This document shows positions 50,560 to 55,660 of a stretch of DNA of 64,000 bases, piece after piece (the first letter of the stretch is position 1; the number at the start of each line of letters is the position of its first letter). The DNA is from Burkholderia sp. USMB20. GTDB lineage: Bacteria > Pseudomonadota > Gammaproteobacteria > Burkholderiales > Burkholderiaceae. The notes below the pieces were generated by a model that saw only the letters and a program-made list of their open reading frames with translations, did not search any database and was not told the DNA's origin. The stretch spans positions 59,548 to 123,547 of the forward strand of contig NZ_JTAN02000004.1 in assembly GCF_000949135.2 (NCBI RefSeq). The letters run 5' to 3'. A program made the translations under genes and the position numbers.

Positions 50560-50606
50560 AAAAAGGCGCCGGGCCGCCCCGCAATCGCGGGACGGCCCGG
50601 CGCCTT
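50560..50606 (-). terminator. Rho-independent terminator of the entericidin gene
   Basis: A 14-bp perfect stem (AAGGCGCCGGGCCG with CGGCCCGGCGCCTT) capped by an inner CCCGC hairpin. On the minus strand it is followed by TTTTTC. It could also stop transcription of the membrane-protein gene from the other side. Confidence 0.85.
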
Positions 50607-50628
50607 CTGCATTCCGGAACCCGGCAGC

Positions 50629-50763
50629 TTATTTGGCCTTCTCAGCCGTATCGCTGATTGCCTGGCCACCCTTCGAAATGTCCTGCCCCACGCCTGCAAC
50701 GGTATTGCAACCGGCGAGCGCGGCGGTCACCACCAGCAGCACTGCAGCAATCGTACGCGTCAT
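50629..50763 (-). CDS. Entericidin A/B-family lipoprotein
   Basis: 44 residues: MTRTIAAVLLVVTAALAGCN with a lipobox LAGC (Cys19), then GVGQDISKGGQAISDTAEKA. That is the complete entericidin pattern. Such small lipoproteins sit in the cell envelope and are linked to stress and programmed lysis (EcnA/EcnB). Ribosome site AAGGAGAACG precedes the ATG. A strong terminator follows. Confidence 0.92.
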   Translation of the reverse strand: MTRTIAAVLLVVTAALAGCNTVAGVGQDISKGGQAISDTAEKAK

Positions 50764-50941
50764 GCTCGTTCTCCTTCGAGTCAACATGCCCGACCGGGCG
50801 AATCGTATGCGGCGTGGTGCCCTGCGGTGTGCAGGACACGGGGCCTGACCTGATTATACGGAGACGGCCGCCGTGCGCCAGTGCCGACCGCGCCAGTGCC
50901 CTCGCACGACACGGCCGGCCGGCCGGTCGCACAGATTTTCC

Positions 50942-50985
50942 TTGACTTCGTCGGCACGCGAACTAATATACGCACCGCGTATATT
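50942..50985 (+). promoter_or_regulatory. Promoter with embedded palindromic operator of the HTH-ATCase gene
   Basis: TTGACT (50942-50947), 17 bp, AATATA (50965-50970) form a sigma-70 promoter. The -10 lies inside a perfect inverted repeat: AATATACGC (50965-50973) and GCGTATATT (50977-50985), 3 bp apart. A protein bound there would block RNA polymerase. Confidence 0.6.
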
Positions 50986-51003
50986 TCTCATCAGGTGCCG
51001 CCG

Positions 51004-52299
51004 ATGACCGTTCCCCAGCAAGCCTTCCTGCGCGACGCGATGCGCCGCCTCAACATGACCCGCGAAGCGTTCGCGAACCGCATCGGCGTGAGCCGCCGCG
51101 CGCTCGACACGTGGCTGTTGCCCGACGACTCGCAGGAATCGCGCGGGATGCCCGAGATCGTCGAACGCTTCGTGTCGGAAATCGTCGAGCGCTCGGCACC
51201 GGACGGCGGAGACTATACGCAAAGCGTAGACAAACAGGAGCTCGCAAAGCAATTCCTGTTCGAAGGCAAGCCGCAGTTGATCTCGGTGGACCAGTTCTCG
51301 CGCGACTCGGTCGAGGCGCTGTTCCGCGTCGCCGACGTGATGCAGCCGATCGCGCGCCGCCACAAGATCTCGCGCGTGCTCGAGGGCGCAGTGCTCGGCA
51401 ACCTGTTCTTCGAAGCCAGCACGCGCACGCGCGTGTCGTTCGGCGCGGCCTTCTGCCGGCTCGGCGGCTCGGTGTGCGACACGACCGGCTTCACGTTCTC
51501 GTCGATGGCCAAGGGCGAATCGATCTACGACACGAGCCGCGTGATGGCCGGCTACGTCGACGCACTCGTGATCCGCCACCCGGAGAAAGGCTCGGTTGCC
51601 GAATTCGCGCGCGCGACCAACCTGCCGGTGATCAACGGCGGCGACGGCCCGGGCGAGCACCCGAGCCAGGCACTCCTCGATCTCTATACGATCCAGCGCG
51701 AGTTCTCGCGGCTCGGCAAAATCGTCGACGGCGCGCATATCGCGCTCGTCGGCGACCTGAAATACGGTCGCACCGTGCATTCGCTCGTCAAGCTGCTCGC
51801 GCTGTACCGCGGACTGAAGTTCACGCTCGTGTCGCCGCCGACGCTCGAAATGCCCGCGTACATCATCGACCAGATCGCGACGAACGGCCACGTGATCGAG
51901 CAGACGAACGACCTCGCGGGCGGGCTGCGCGGCGCGGACGTCGTCTATGCGACGCGGATCCAGAAGGAGCGCTTCACCGACGAGTCGTTCGAGGGCTATA
52001 CGCCGGATTTCCAGATCAACCAGGCGCTCGTCGACTCCGTCTGCAAGCCCGACACGCTGATCATGCACCCGCTGCCGCGCGACAGCCGGCCCGGCGCGAA
52101 CGACCTGTCGGTCGACTTGAACCGCGATCCGCGACTCGCGATCTTCCGGCAGACCGACAACGGCATTCCGGTGCGGATGGCGATCTTCGCGGTGCTGCTC
52201 GGCGTCGAGAATCTCGTCCAGCATTCGATGCGCGATGCGACGTGGCGCCCGCCGGCGTACCTCGGGCCGGAGGATGCGGTGTTTCACGGAATCGATTGA
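51004..52299 (+). CDS. Aspartate carbamoyltransferase with N-terminal helix-turn-helix
   Basis: 431 residues, about 120 longer than a catalytic ATCase chain. Residues 80-431 are a complete ATCase: carbamoyl-phosphate loop FFEASTRTRVSF (STRTR 139-143), loop lysine 170 in SMAKGES, HPSQALLDLYTI, ATRIQKERF and HPLPRD. So it should make carbamoyl-aspartate. Residues 5-45 (LNMTREAFANRIGVSRRALDTW, in pieces) look like an XRE-type helix-turn-helix. The promoter -10 lies in a perfect inverted repeat, and a second such site is inside the gene at codon 71. Pathway genes are not adjacent. It may be a second, differently controlled ATCase. Confidence 0.85.
   Translation: MTVPQQAFLRDAMRRLNMTREAFANRIGVSRRALDTWLLPDDSQESRGMPEIVERFVSEIVERSAPDGGDYTQSVDKQELAKQFLFEGKPQLISVDQFSRDSVEALFRVADVMQPIARRHKISRVLEGAVLGNLFFEASTRTRVSFGAAFCRLGGSVCDTTGFTFSSMAKGESIYDTSRVMAGYVDALVIRHPEKGSVAEFARATNLPVINGGDGPGEHPSQALLDLYTIQREFSRLGKIVDGAHIALVGDLKYGRTVHSLVKLLALYRGLKFTLVSPPTLEMPAYIIDQIATNGHVIEQTNDLAGGLRGADVVYATRIQKERFTDESFEGYTPDFQINQALVDSVCKPDTLIMHPLPRDSRPGANDLSVDLNRDPRLAIFRQTDNGIPVRMAIFAVLLGVENLVQHSMRDATWRPPAYLGPEDAVFHGID
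51214..51230. promoter_or_regulatory. Second copy of the operator-like repeat inside the ATCase gene
   Basis: TATACGC (51214-51220), 3 bp, GCGTAGA (51224-51230): same core (TACGC, 3 bp, GCGTA) and spacing as the promoter site 250 bp upstream. It lies between the helix-turn-helix and the ATCase domain. Confidence 0.4.
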
Positions 52300-52371
52300 C
52301 CCGCATCCAGTGTCGCGCGGCCAGACTCGAGATTGCTGAAGATCGAGCGCCGCGCGCCGAAGCAACGCACG

Positions 52372-52403
52372 ACGCGCCGCCTTGCACGGCGCGTTTTCAT
52401 TTT
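52372..52403 (+). terminator. Rho-independent terminator of the ATCase gene
   Basis: 8-bp stem ACGCGCCG/CGGCGCGT with a 7-nt loop, followed by TTTCATTTTC on the plus strand, 73 bp after the ATCase stop and ahead of the convergent toxin gene. Confidence 0.7.
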
Positions 52404-52437
52404 CGGCGCGGGTGATATCGAGGCGACCGGCCGGAAG

Positions 52438-52857
52438 TTAGCGAACCCACGGATCGATCACGCGCAGGCCCGCTGCTTCGAACGGTGCGACGTCGCGCGT
52501 GGCCACGATCAACCCGTTGGCTGCGGCGGTTGCAGCGATGAAGCCATCGGCAGGCGCCATCGTGTGCCCCAGGGCGCGCGCCTTCGCGCGTAGGCTCGCA
52601 TATGCGTCACTGGCCGCATCGTCGAACGGCAGAATCCGCCCGCGAAACAACGGCACGACGCGTTGCTCGATGTTTTGGTGCAGCCAGTCTCGCCTGCGCC
52701 CCTCCGGCAACGCGGCCACGCCGAATCGCATCTCGGCCAGACTGATCGCGGCAAGAAACAGCGTCTCGACGTTTTGCGCGTCGAGCCATTCGATCACGGC
52801 CGCGCTCGGTTCGCGTCGCAGCGGCTCCGAAATGACGTTGGTATCGACCAGAATCAT
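52438..52857 (-). CDS. PIN-domain toxin (VapC/FitB-like)
   Basis: 139 residues. The acidic residues of the PIN nuclease site are in place: VDTNVISE (Asp5), LAEMRFG (Glu), PADGFIAATA (Asp) and ATRDVAPF (Asp). Probably a ribonuclease toxin held inactive by the RHH antitoxin, whose stop codon its start overlaps by 4 bp. Related to FitB. Confidence 0.88.
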   Translation of the reverse strand: MILVDTNVISEPLRREPSAAVIEWLDAQNVETLFLAAISLAEMRFGVAALPEGRRRDWLHQNIEQRVVPLFRGRILPFDDAASDAYASLRAKARALGHTMAPADGFIAATAAANGLIVATRDVAPFEAAGLRVIDPWVR

Positions 52858-53093
52858 TCGAAGCTCATCGGATCGGTTGGCGATTGATCGCGCTGAACCT
52901 CGAGATCGATGCCGCCAGCCTCTCGCCCGATCTCCGCCAGCAGCGTTCCCAGCCTGGGACGTCCGCCGGGCCGAACGGCCTGCTCGAGGATATCGCGCAC
53001 CTCGGCCTCGGTACTGCGGCCATGTTGTGCAGCACGGATTCGAAGCGCGCGATGCACCTCGTCGGGCAGGTTTCTAACAGTGATCACAGGCAT
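52854..53093 (-). CDS. FitA-like ribbon-helix-helix antitoxin
   Basis: 79 residues. MPVITVRNLPDEVHRALRIR AAQHGRSTEAEV is the typical FitA ribbon-helix-helix: it binds DNA as a dimer and represses the operon, and its C-terminal part neutralises the PIN toxin. An in-frame ATG at 53129 would add 12 residues. It precedes the toxin with an ATGA overlap. Confidence 0.88.
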   Translation of the reverse strand: MPVITVRNLPDEVHRALRIRAAQHGRSTEAEVRDILEQAVRPGGRPRLGTLLAEIGREAGGIDLEVQRDQSPTDPMSFE

Positions 53094-53276
53094 GATGCGC
53101 CTCACTACATTTGCTTTCAATGCAGTCATATTATCACCTTGCTGTCATTTTGGACGAGTGAAGACCCGATCACTGTAAACCGCCCGCCTCGCCTTTCCCA
53201 CTCGGCCATTCGGCCATCGCCGCAACCCCGCACGCGCTCGGCAGCCCTCCGCCACATTCGCCAACACTCCTCCCAC

Positions 53277-53303: not shown

Positions 53304-53416
53304 AAAAAGAAATTACATAGAATGCCACCTGAAAACAAATCGTAATAATTCCCGGCGGCATGCACATTTCCGTAGCGCGTCGTTCCCGGGGCCACACTGC
53401 GAGGTCGAAGCGCATC

Positions 53417-55660
53417 ATGAAGTCCCGTCCTGACGAGCAGAAGCTCGGCAAATTCACCACCCTGTGCAGCGTGCTCGCCGCGAGCCCGGCGTTCGCCGAC
53501 GGCACGCCGCCATCCGCCCCGGTCGGCACCGAAGGCCATCTCGCGCCGATCGAGGTCCAGGGCAAGGCCGAGCACAGCTACAAGGCCGACTTTTCCGCAT
53601 CCGCGAAATTCACCGCGCCGCTCGTCGACACGCCGAAGTCGGTGACCGTGATCCCGCAGGAACTGATCCAGAGCAGCGGCGCGGCGACGCTGACCGAAGC
53701 GCTGCGCACCGTGCCCGGCATCACGTTCGGCGCCGGCGAAGGCGGCAACCCGCTCGGCGACCGCCCGTTCATCCGCGGCTACGACACGCAGGGCAGCATG
53801 TTCGTCGACGGGATGCGCGACACGGGCGCGACCACGCGCGAAATCTTCAACACGGAACGCGTCGAGATCACCAAGGGCTCCGACGGCGCGTACGGCGGCC
53901 GCGGCGGCGCGGGCGGCAGCATCAACCTGATCACGAAGGCGCCGCACCTCGGCACGACGGCCGCCGCGAGCGCGGGCCTCGGCACCGACCGCTATCGCCG
54001 CTTCACCGCCGACGGCAACTGGCAGTTCGCCGATCACGCGGCGTTCCGCCTGAACCTGATGAGCCACAACAACGACGTCGCCGGCCGCGACGCCGTCAAC
54101 AACGAGCGCTGGGGCGTCGCGCCGTCGATCGCGTTCGGCCTCGGCACGCCGACGCGCGTGACCGCGAGCTACTACCACCTGTCGACCGACGACATGCCCG
54201 ACGGCGGCATTCCGTACTTCTACACGACGTCGAACAAGCCCGCGAACGTCGACACGATCTATCCGGCGCCGGTCGACCGTCACAACTTCTACGGCCTGAT
54301 CGACCGCGACTTCCGCAAGACCACGTCGGACATCAGCACGATCAAGATCGAGCACGACATCACGTCGAATCTGACGGTGCGCAACACCACGCGCTACACG
54401 GAATCGACGCAGGACTACATCTGGACGCAGCCCGACGACAGCCAGGGCAACGTGGTCAACGGCCGTGTCTGGCGCCGCAACAACAATCGCGACAGCTCGA
54501 TCAACAGCCTCGCGAACCTGACCGAACTGTTCGGCGAATTCCGCACCGGCCCGTTCAAGCACAGCTTCACGACCGGCATCGAGCTGACGCGCGAATGGGG
54601 CAAGCGCGATTCGTACACGGTCGCGACCGACAAGGGCACCATCTGCCAGCAAGGCATCGGCGCGCCGTCCGGCTACAACTGCACGAGCCTGTGGTCGCCT
54701 GATCCGAACGATCCGTGGGCCGGCTCCGTCACGCGCAACAACGACTATGCGCATGCACGCACCACGACCAAGTCGATCTACGGCTTCGACACGATCGAGC
54801 TCACGCCGCGCTGGCAGGTGAACGCCGGCGTGCGCGTCGACGATTACTCGACCCGCTTCACCGACACCAAGGCCAACGGCAGCAAGACCTACACGCGCGA
54901 CGACACGCTCTTCAACTGGCAGGCCGGCCTCGTGTTCAAGCCCGCGCAGAACGGCAGCATCTACGCGTCGTATGCGACGTCGTCGACGCCGGCCGGCATG
55001 CTGCTCGGCGAAGGCAGCGAAACGCAGTCGCTCACGCCGGGCCGCGGCGGCGTCGGCCCGAACGCCGATCAGATGGCCCCCGAGAAGAACCGCAGCATCG
55101 AGCTCGGCACGAAGTGGAACGTGCTGAACGACAAGCTGTCGCTGACCGCCGCGCTGTTCCAGATCGACACGACGAATGCGCGCGTGACGCTGCCGAACAA
55201 CCAGTACGCGATGGTCGGCAACAAGCGCGTGCAAGGTCTCGAACTCGGCGTCGCCGGGCAGATCACGAAGCAGTGGCAGGTGTTCGGCGGCTATACGTAC
55301 ATGAAGAGCGAGCTGCGCGACAACGGCAAGGATGCAGCGAATGACGGCAACCGCTTCCCGAATACGCCGAAGCACAGCCTGACGATGTGGTCGAACTACG
55401 ACGTGACGCCGAAGTTCACTGTCGGCGGCGGCGCGTTCTACATGTCGGAAGTGTTCGGCGATCCCGCGAACCTGCGCGCGGTGCCGTCGTACTGGCGTTT
55501 CGACGCGATGGCGCAATACCGGATCAACAAGAAGCTCGACCTGCAGCTGAACGTGAACAACCTGTTCAACCGCACGTACTTCGATCAGGCGTATCCGGCG
55601 CACTACGCGTCGATCGCGCCGGGCCGCTCGGCGTTCGTCACGCTGAACGCGCGCTACTGA
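53417..55660 (+). CDS. fiu: TonB-dependent siderophore receptor (Fiu-like)
   Basis: 747 residues from the ATG at 53417; the open frame allows 19 more. Signal peptide to AASPAFA. Plug domain with TPKSVTVIPQELI, RGYDTQGSMFVDGMRDTG and GGSINLITKAP; 22-strand barrel ending in TLNARY with an aromatic terminus. The close likeness to Fiu/CirA-type catecholate receptors, together with the Sel1-repeat and PiuC genes that follow, indicates uptake of catechol-iron compounds and of catechol-conjugated antibiotics. Probably repressed by Fur. Confidence 0.9.
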   Translation: MKSRPDEQKLGKFTTLCSVLAASPAFADGTPPSAPVGTEGHLAPIEVQGKAEHSYKADFSASAKFTAPLVDTPKSVTVIPQELIQSSGAATLTEALRTVPGITFGAGEGGNPLGDRPFIRGYDTQGSMFVDGMRDTGATTREIFNTERVEITKGSDGAYGGRGGAGGSINLITKAPHLGTTAAASAGLGTDRYRRFTADGNWQFADHAAFRLNLMSHNNDVAGRDAVNNERWGVAPSIAFGLGTPTRVTASYYHLSTDDMPDGGIPYFYTTSNKPANVDTIYPAPVDRHNFYGLIDRDFRKTTSDISTIKIEHDITSNLTVRNTTRYTESTQDYIWTQPDDSQGNVVNGRVWRRNNNRDSSINSLANLTELFGEFRTGPFKHSFTTGIELTREWGKRDSYTVATDKGTICQQGIGAPSGYNCTSLWSPDPNDPWAGSVTRNNDYAHARTTTKSIYGFDTIELTPRWQVNAGVRVDDYSTRFTDTKANGSKTYTRDDTLFNWQAGLVFKPAQNGSIYASYATSSTPAGMLLGEGSETQSLTPGRGGVGPNADQMAPEKNRSIELGTKWNVLNDKLSLTAALFQIDTTNARVTLPNNQYAMVGNKRVQGLELGVAGQITKQWQVFGGYTYMKSELRDNGKDAANDGNRFPNTPKHSLTMWSNYDVTPKFTVGGGAFYMSEVFGDPANLRAVPSYWRFDAMAQYRINKKLDLQLNVNNLFNRTYFDQAYPAHYASIAPGRSAFVTLNARY

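Follow-up and report, generated by a model that had tools for sequence, protein, structure and literature searches.

The window analysed here is a 64,000-nucleotide stretch of Burkholderia sp. USMB20 (NCBI RefSeq assembly GCF_000949135.2, contig NZ_JTAN02000004.1, positions 59,548 to 123,547 of the forward strand). Our subject within it is a plus-strand gene at 51004..52299, an open reading frame (ORF) with its ATG at 51004 and a stop codon ending at 52299, which encodes a 431 aa aspartate transcarbamylase (ATCase) with a predicted N-terminal helix-turn-helix (HTH) domain, hereafter HTH-ATCase, together with two predicted operators, O1 over the promoter and O2 inside the coding sequence. The neighbouring ORFs, judged by eye, suggest a single-gene unit. 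The protein matches NCBIfam PRK11891 (NF008853) across residues 1-431 (895 bits against a cut-off of 560) and TIGR00670 with 298 bits against a cut-off of 236.95. Per Pfam, a carbamoyl-phosphate-binding domain occupies residues 92-231 (51277..51696, plus strand; PF02729 OTCace_N, 7.8e-43) and an aspartate-binding domain residues 243-397 (51730..52194, plus strand; PF00185 OTCace, 6.4e-28). S139 T140 R141 T142, K170, H219 P220 Q222 and R256 are invariant in 55 of 55 aligned relatives, as are R318 Q320 E322 R323 and H355 P356 L357 P358; we take STRT, HPxQ and the lysine of the 80s loop to be the carbamoyl-phosphate and aspartate motifs. The first-pass annotation had placed all ATCase motifs in residues 80-431, and the motifs are there, invariant in the 55 rows, while the alignable ATCase begins somewhat later, at about residues 89-92. 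The ATCase motifs FxExSTR, RxQxER and HPLP are named in the accessible text of PMC4581275. HTH-ATCase is thus presumably a working enzyme.

The HTH domain was assigned to residues 5-45 (51016..51138, plus strand) from a sub-threshold Pfam match, the predicted fold and a fold comparison. The same residues had been proposed earlier as an XRE-type HTH, and structure prediction bears this out: the AlphaFold2 model of residues 1-75 (mean predicted local distance difference test score, pLDDT, of 80) has helices at residues 5-15, 20-27, 31-37 and 51-64, a predicted helical fold that includes an HTH. The third of these helices (residues 31-37, RRALDTW; 51094..51114, plus strand) we take, by analogy with the XRE fold, to be the helix that reads DNA, and the fourth (residues 51-64) is encoded by 51154..51195 on the plus strand. 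R32, A33, L34, D35 and W37 are invariant in 30 aligned rows, and over 115 loci the mean column entropy of the HTH (0.353 bit) is close to the 0.335 bit of residues 89-400. The Pfam family HTH_3 matches 23 of 30 relatives at E values up to 1, the best being 0.002. The solved folds closest to the N-terminal model are Aca1, a phage HTH protein whose structure was solved on palindromic DNA, and other anti-CRISPR-associated HTH proteins. Between the HTH and the enzyme lies a variable linker (residues 63-88; 51190..51267, plus strand), delimited by column entropy (2.33 bit at residues 63-70 and 1.64 at 76-88, over the same 115 loci) and by pLDDT, which falls below 50 at residues 65-78 and 85-90, as it does in the catalytic stretches 152-156 and 158-162. 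Because the linker is poorly conserved and modelled with low confidence, any coupling of ligand state to the HTH, including the response to carbamoyl phosphate, aspartate or a nucleotide that the first-pass annotation had suggested, is a guess.

A scan for sigma-70-like promoters returned a single site upstream of the gene, TTGACT-16-TAATAT at 50942-50969 (shuffled sequences gave a mean of 0.1), with the -35 box TTGACT at 50942..50947 and the -10 box TAATAT at 50964..50969, both on the plus strand. As the first-pass annotation had noted, the -10 box is embedded in a perfect inverted repeat: the predicted operator O1, at 50965..50985, is an exact 9-3-9 repeat, AATATACGC-ACC-GCGTATATT, which overlaps the -10 box by five of its six bases. 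A further site of this kind had been reported at codons 71-76 (YTQSVD), and it is present as the predicted operator O2, TATACGCAAAGCGTAGA, at 51214..51230 with one mismatch, its centre 247 bp from that of O1. TTGAC at the -35 position is kept in most of the listed upstream regions of genera g1 and g20, with varying flanks. The distance from O1 to the start codon ranges from 24 to 74 bp in relatives (112 bp in one), while the surrounding promoter sequence stays the same. Across loci the half-sites are fixed, the spacer is free and the arms are not compensatory; fixed halves with a free spacer are as expected of a protein dimer on DNA rather than of an RNA stem. A scan of the window allowing three mismatches finds 2 sites against 1.28 expected, a count reached by 33 of 100 shuffles, and taken alone it is not surprising. 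The nearest comparison genome, G001 (8.1 Mb), which has 20% of the window's sampled words in common, contains exactly two sites with 0-1 mismatch, namely O1 and O2.

We compared 191 loci, counting the window. The recognition helix is intact in 168 of them; the HTH is decayed in 5 and absent from 18. The loci are a sample of our own picking, spread over genera and drawn from match lists of which one is incomplete; loci L001-L009, L110-L124, L126, L127, L145-L148, L161-L175 and L236-L246 and 80 named loci (L247-L326) were fetched and are outside the count. Each locus was scored by its best match, within 150 bp upstream, to the 14 fixed letters of TATACGC-N3-GCGTATA. All 168 HTH-intact loci score 10-14 and all 23 others score 7-9, so that a score of at least 10 is found in 168/168 against 0/23, and the repeat is kept in relatives only where the HTH is, as the first-pass annotation had proposed to check. 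Dinucleotide shuffles of the HTH-positive upstream regions reach 10 in 7.1% of cases, 11 in 1.4% and 12 in 0.04%. Sites of at least 12 letters number 164 upstream, 126 in codons 51-100, 2 elsewhere in genes and 3 in 750,603 flanking bases, i.e., 5 in the other 0.94 Mb of the analysed loci, and the 23 loci with absent or decayed HTH, 172,516 bases in all, contain no such site. The repeat persists in loci down to 64% protein identity, where the flanks differ, and is absent from HTH-less relatives in other families, some of them 65-70% identical in the catalytic part. Comparison across these loci shows that the predicted operator and the intact recognition helix go together. A matched change of helix and operator was also considered. 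In three loci of one genus (L206-L208) the recognition helix reads RRTLD instead of RRALD and the operator carries a GTG half-site; in L212, however, RRTLD occurs together with an ordinary half-site, and no rule emerges.

The losses of the HTH offer a closer look at this pairing. Among the reduced genomes of family f4, five loci of genus g346 have a degraded HTH, in which RRALD has become forms such as LHTLN and ANILN, and the HTH is missing in G1111 (of the same genus), G1014 and G373; none of these eight loci has a site above 9. The six g346 genomes (L176-L180 and L181, 0.7-0.8 Mb) present the HTH decaying in five species and gone in a sixth, and in all six the catalytic part stays as the sole ATCase over the cut-off. 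G1111 and G1014 group with the five decayed loci in a clade that arises from within the HTH-intact sequences (99/87), while G373 is a long branch of unsure placement. Outside this family, the ATCases of L149-L155 (family f60, same class, other order) are HTH-less, 65-70% identical to the catalytic part and nearer to it than five other HTH-less ATCases of the class (L156-L160, 55-58%). The f60 lineage may have received its gene by transfer or lost the HTH, and the trees do not settle which. Relatives with and without the HTH, including the decaying cases in reduced genomes, amount to a ready natural experiment.

O2 reaches at least 11 of 14 letters in 146 of the 168 HTH-intact loci and at least 12 in 126, and all 126 of the latter start at nucleotide 201-213 after the A of the start codon, one per locus. 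Tyr71-Thr-Gln-Ser-Val75 is retained although the surrounding linker is the most variable part of the protein, and the codons are retained with it: Val is GTA in 98 of 99 rows against 4.1% elsewhere in the gene, Ser is AGC in 94 of 95 against 25%, and Tyr is TAT in 86 of 89 against 30%. Among conserved columns of the same amino acid, four of the five O2 codons rank first in constancy; the fifth, that of Gln73, ranks 13th of 17, and its third base belongs to the spacer. The comparison thus shows the putative O2 to be held at the DNA level. We also considered whether a lost O2 is compensated by a second upstream site of 11, which occurs in 4 of 22 loci without O2 and in 3 of 146 with it; this is suggestive of compensation in a few lineages and is no rule.

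The operator appears to serve this gene alone. The sets used here and below (32 genomes for the motif scan, 21 for counting ATCases, 30 for the HTH-profile scan) were chosen by us, with reduced genomes deliberately included. Allowing at most one mismatch, the 32 genomes contain 26 sites, of which 21 are at the HTH-ATCase gene and 5 elsewhere; a reversed-pattern control gives 7. Such a site is present at the gene in 16 of the 19 genomes with an intact HTH-ATCase, the other three having 11-12 letters there. No site within one mismatch occurs in the 13 genomes that lack an intact HTH-ATCase, where the reversed pattern finds 4. A wider regulon was considered and rejected, as the five off-locus sites (L163, L169, L243, L244, L245) do not exceed the control, two of them represent one stretch shared by two congeneric species, and no pyrimidine gene was recognised by eye among the ORFs there. 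The comparison shows the predicted operator to be dedicated to the HTH-ATCase gene.

From these comparisons we propose, with a probability of roughly 0.87, that HTH-ATCase is an autogenous repressor-enzyme dedicated to its own gene. Self-regulation is well supported, as far as genome comparison can support it, because the HTH fold is predicted, the repeat is conserved and it is found only with an intact HTH. The protein would bind the operators directly. The HTH domains of two subunits would pair on the dyad TATACGC-N3-GCGTATA over the -10 box, and the dimer at O1 would keep RNA polymerase off the promoter; repression rather than activation is the probable direction because O1 overlaps the -10 box. 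O2 presumably has a role in this repression: binding there, about 247 bp downstream, could strengthen it by cooperation, looping or a road-block. The outcome would be feedback on the level of the enzyme.

ATCase catalytic chains form trimers, and the E. coli holoenzyme is regulated via regulatory dimers that link two trimers (PMC4581275, accessible text). A dimer bound to the dyad would therefore imply either two paired trimers or the use of two of three HTH domains, and a hexamer might bridge O1 and O2. Compared with the E. coli holoenzyme, the HTH dimers of HTH-ATCase might occupy the place of the regulatory dimers. A speculative extension, which we hold to be doubtful, is that HTH dimers do replace the regulatory dimers, joining two trimers into a hexamer that loops O1 to O2, and that the HTH dimers change their spacing as the trimers move in response to substrate, so that catalytic state sets expression. 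If so, the looped hexamer would be an ATCase carrying out its allosteric feedback on DNA, by catalytic state and not only by amount. The spacings between O1 and O2 in 145 loci look clustered by eye (235-238, 243-249 and 254-260), and looping lacks support from phasing because the spacing test is not significant at any period tried.

Several results weigh against autogenous repression or its parts. The Pfam HTH_3 match of the window protein (residues 9-34) is below the gathering score, at 17.9 bits against 23 (E 0.0032), the HTH profile searched by sequence against PDB chains gives nothing significant (best E 0.12), and the best Foldseek hit of the N-terminal model has an E value of 0.042. What counts as an intact helix was defined more broadly once the scores were known; by the narrower definition, the 159 loci classed as intact score 12-14, and 9 of the 14 classed as "decayed" score 10-13. 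L206 has the lowest score of an intact locus, 10, which about 7% of shuffles also attain, so that this single score and, less so, the three scores of 11 are individually not convincing. Independent contrasts between presence and absence are few, 2 on supported branches or 3 on the best tree, for which a sign test gives p 0.5, and HTH and operator could have been lost from the AT-rich reduced genomes by general decay. O2 is weak or absent (<11/14) in 22 of 168 loci, of which only 4 show a second upstream site of 11, and helical phasing of the two sites is not significant (P 0.15 at 10.5 bp in 33 thinned loci, and at least 0.09 for all periods tried).

The first alternative to autogenous repression, which we consider improbable, is that a separate transcription factor binds the palindromes and that the N-terminal domain serves only the assembly or regulation of the enzyme. 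It draws on the sub-threshold Pfam score and on DNA binding by the HTH being a prediction. Such a factor would need to be present wherever HTH-ATCase is intact and to have this gene as its sole target, given that 21 of the 26 near-perfect sites in the 32 genomes are at the gene and the other 5 compare with 7 in the control; furthermore, the operator is lost in the five loci with a degraded recognition helix. A shade less probable still is that HTH-ATCase at O1 acts as an activator, a reading left room by the direction of control being deduced from the position of the site. In the window, O1 covers the -10 box, where a bound protein should exclude RNA polymerase, and the distance from O1 to the start codon varies while the promoter sequence around O1 is constant. 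In the accessible text of PMC9410906, Aca proteins, of similar fold, repress from an inverted repeat in the core promoter. We give little credence to the repeats acting in RNA, as an attenuator or a PyrR binding site. The canonical pyrB of G001 does adjoin a PyrR-like gene (by eye), which would suit this explanation, but transcription is expected to start near 50976 because the -10 box lies at 50964-50969, and the transcript would then include no more than one arm of O1. The arms are also fixed in sequence rather than compensatory, and no Rfam family comes near its gathering score in 50600-52500, the one match having 16.7 bits against 145.1 (E 0.47). Scarcely credible, finally, is a chance palindrome in a conserved promoter, kept by close kinship only: the unremarkable window-level scan would allow it, but the repeat is conserved to 64% protein identity with differing flanks and missing from HTH-less relatives whose catalytic parts are 65-70% identical.

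As for the role of the enzyme, 14 of the 21 genomes counted have a single TIGR00670 match over the cut-off, either HTH-ATCase or a relative of it in which the HTH is missing or decayed, and the other 7 have two. In five of the 14 the frame has full HTH length (G071, G218, G228, G417 and G456), in five the HTH is decayed and in four it is missing; the recognition helix is intact in G071, G417 and G456, the three that were fetched and inspected. Because it is the sole ATCase over the cut-off in these genomes, this enzyme family can apparently sustain pyrimidine synthesis by itself, and a purely catabolic role is accordingly less likely. In G001, the HTH-ATCase gene is the second ATCase over the cut-off. 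The other (L246, G001:C9) is a canonical ATCase gene of 343 codons flanked by PyrR-like and PyrC-like ORFs (names by eye), so G001 carries two ATCases in different gene settings. The full-length protein (residues 1-431) is present in 61 of 61 sampled genomes of the genus, and the top matches when named genomes were scanned with the HTH alignment are Burkholderia, including B. aenigmatica and B. seminalis, which we take to belong to the cepacia complex.

The HTH profile detects HTH-ATCase in 20 of the 30 genomes scanned and two other stretches besides. One (L241, G244:C3:111567-111776; E 7.7e-24) is a relative of the HTH that is not fused to an ATCase and has a stop directly after the domain; the other (L242, G173:C42:59421-59585; E 1.6e-5) is likewise unfused, in an open frame of 67 codons close to an ORF resembling a nucleotidyltransferase (by eye). 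Such unfused relatives are a possible source of the fused domain. Around the HTH-ATCase gene in the window, named by eye, are a small entericidin-like lipoprotein ORF upstream (about 50642-50764, minus strand); directly downstream, overlapping small ORFs of 139 and 91 aa (52438-53129, minus strand) that resemble a VapC/FitB-type PIN toxin with its antitoxin; and a 766-aa ORF (53360-55660, plus strand) resembling a TonB-dependent siderophore receptor.

PDB matches of the catalytic chain include 6ypo (1.3e-71), 5g1n (1e-69) and 1d09 (4e-58), which we take to be PYRB, CAD and an E. coli-type ATCase chain, respectively; among the 60 of 85 matched PDB sequences listed, none has a best-matching stretch that starts before residue 75. 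The PRK11891 annotation and the long Burkholderia ATCase are already known. A second Burkholderia ATCase of about 430 residues with HPLP, beside the canonical enzyme of about 340 residues with HPGP, is described in PMC4581275, and by length and motif it is the same protein as HTH-ATCase. In its accessible text that paper leaves the role of the second enzyme open, perhaps catabolic; "helix-turn-helix", "DNA-binding" and "N-terminal extension" are not found in its main text, and its section 9 is without HTH or operators. The PRK11891 name does not stand for the HTH, because HTH-less rows match it too (55 of 55 aligned rows match at E up to 1e-100). In the open-access literature, judged mostly from titles and abstracts, we found no report of HTH-ATCase or its operators; bioRxiv and most subscription journals lie outside this, and earlier biochemistry on Burkholderia ATCases may exist. 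The main text of PMC12565409, on palindromes of XRE regulators, is without "TATACGC", "aspartate", "carbamoyl", "pyrB" and "Burkholderia".

Enzymes that join a catalytic and a DNA-binding domain in one polypeptide and control their own pathway include BirA, PutA and NadR. To our knowledge, no transcarbamylase is among such enzyme-repressor fusions. In pyrimidine metabolism, PepA at E. coli carAB is a metabolic enzyme that doubles as a DNA-binding repressor and is, like HTH-ATCase in our proposal, a trigger enzyme of pyrimidine control (PMC6245113, accessible text). It differs in being an unrelated aminopeptidase with N-terminal basic patches, which wraps about 230 bp and targets another gene, carAB, whereas HTH-ATCase would use a fused HTH and a specific dyad at its own gene. 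The layout of O1 and O2 is similar to that of the Aca autorepressors, which use one or two inverted repeats, one of them inside the core promoter (PMC9410906, accessible text). For the second Burkholderia ATCase, our proposal offers a testable answer, a biosynthetic enzyme under its own control, the biosynthetic part being proposed because 14 of the 21 genomes have no ATCase besides HTH-ATCase or a relative of it in which the HTH is absent or decayed. ATCase, the textbook example of an allosteric enzyme, appears in this lineage to have been fused to a sequence-specific repressor whose dedicated operator has been maintained, in most cases along with a second one written in the enzyme's linker codons. 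HTH-ATCase thus looks like a further member of the known enzyme-repressors, new as an ATCase and by the operator in its own linker codons.
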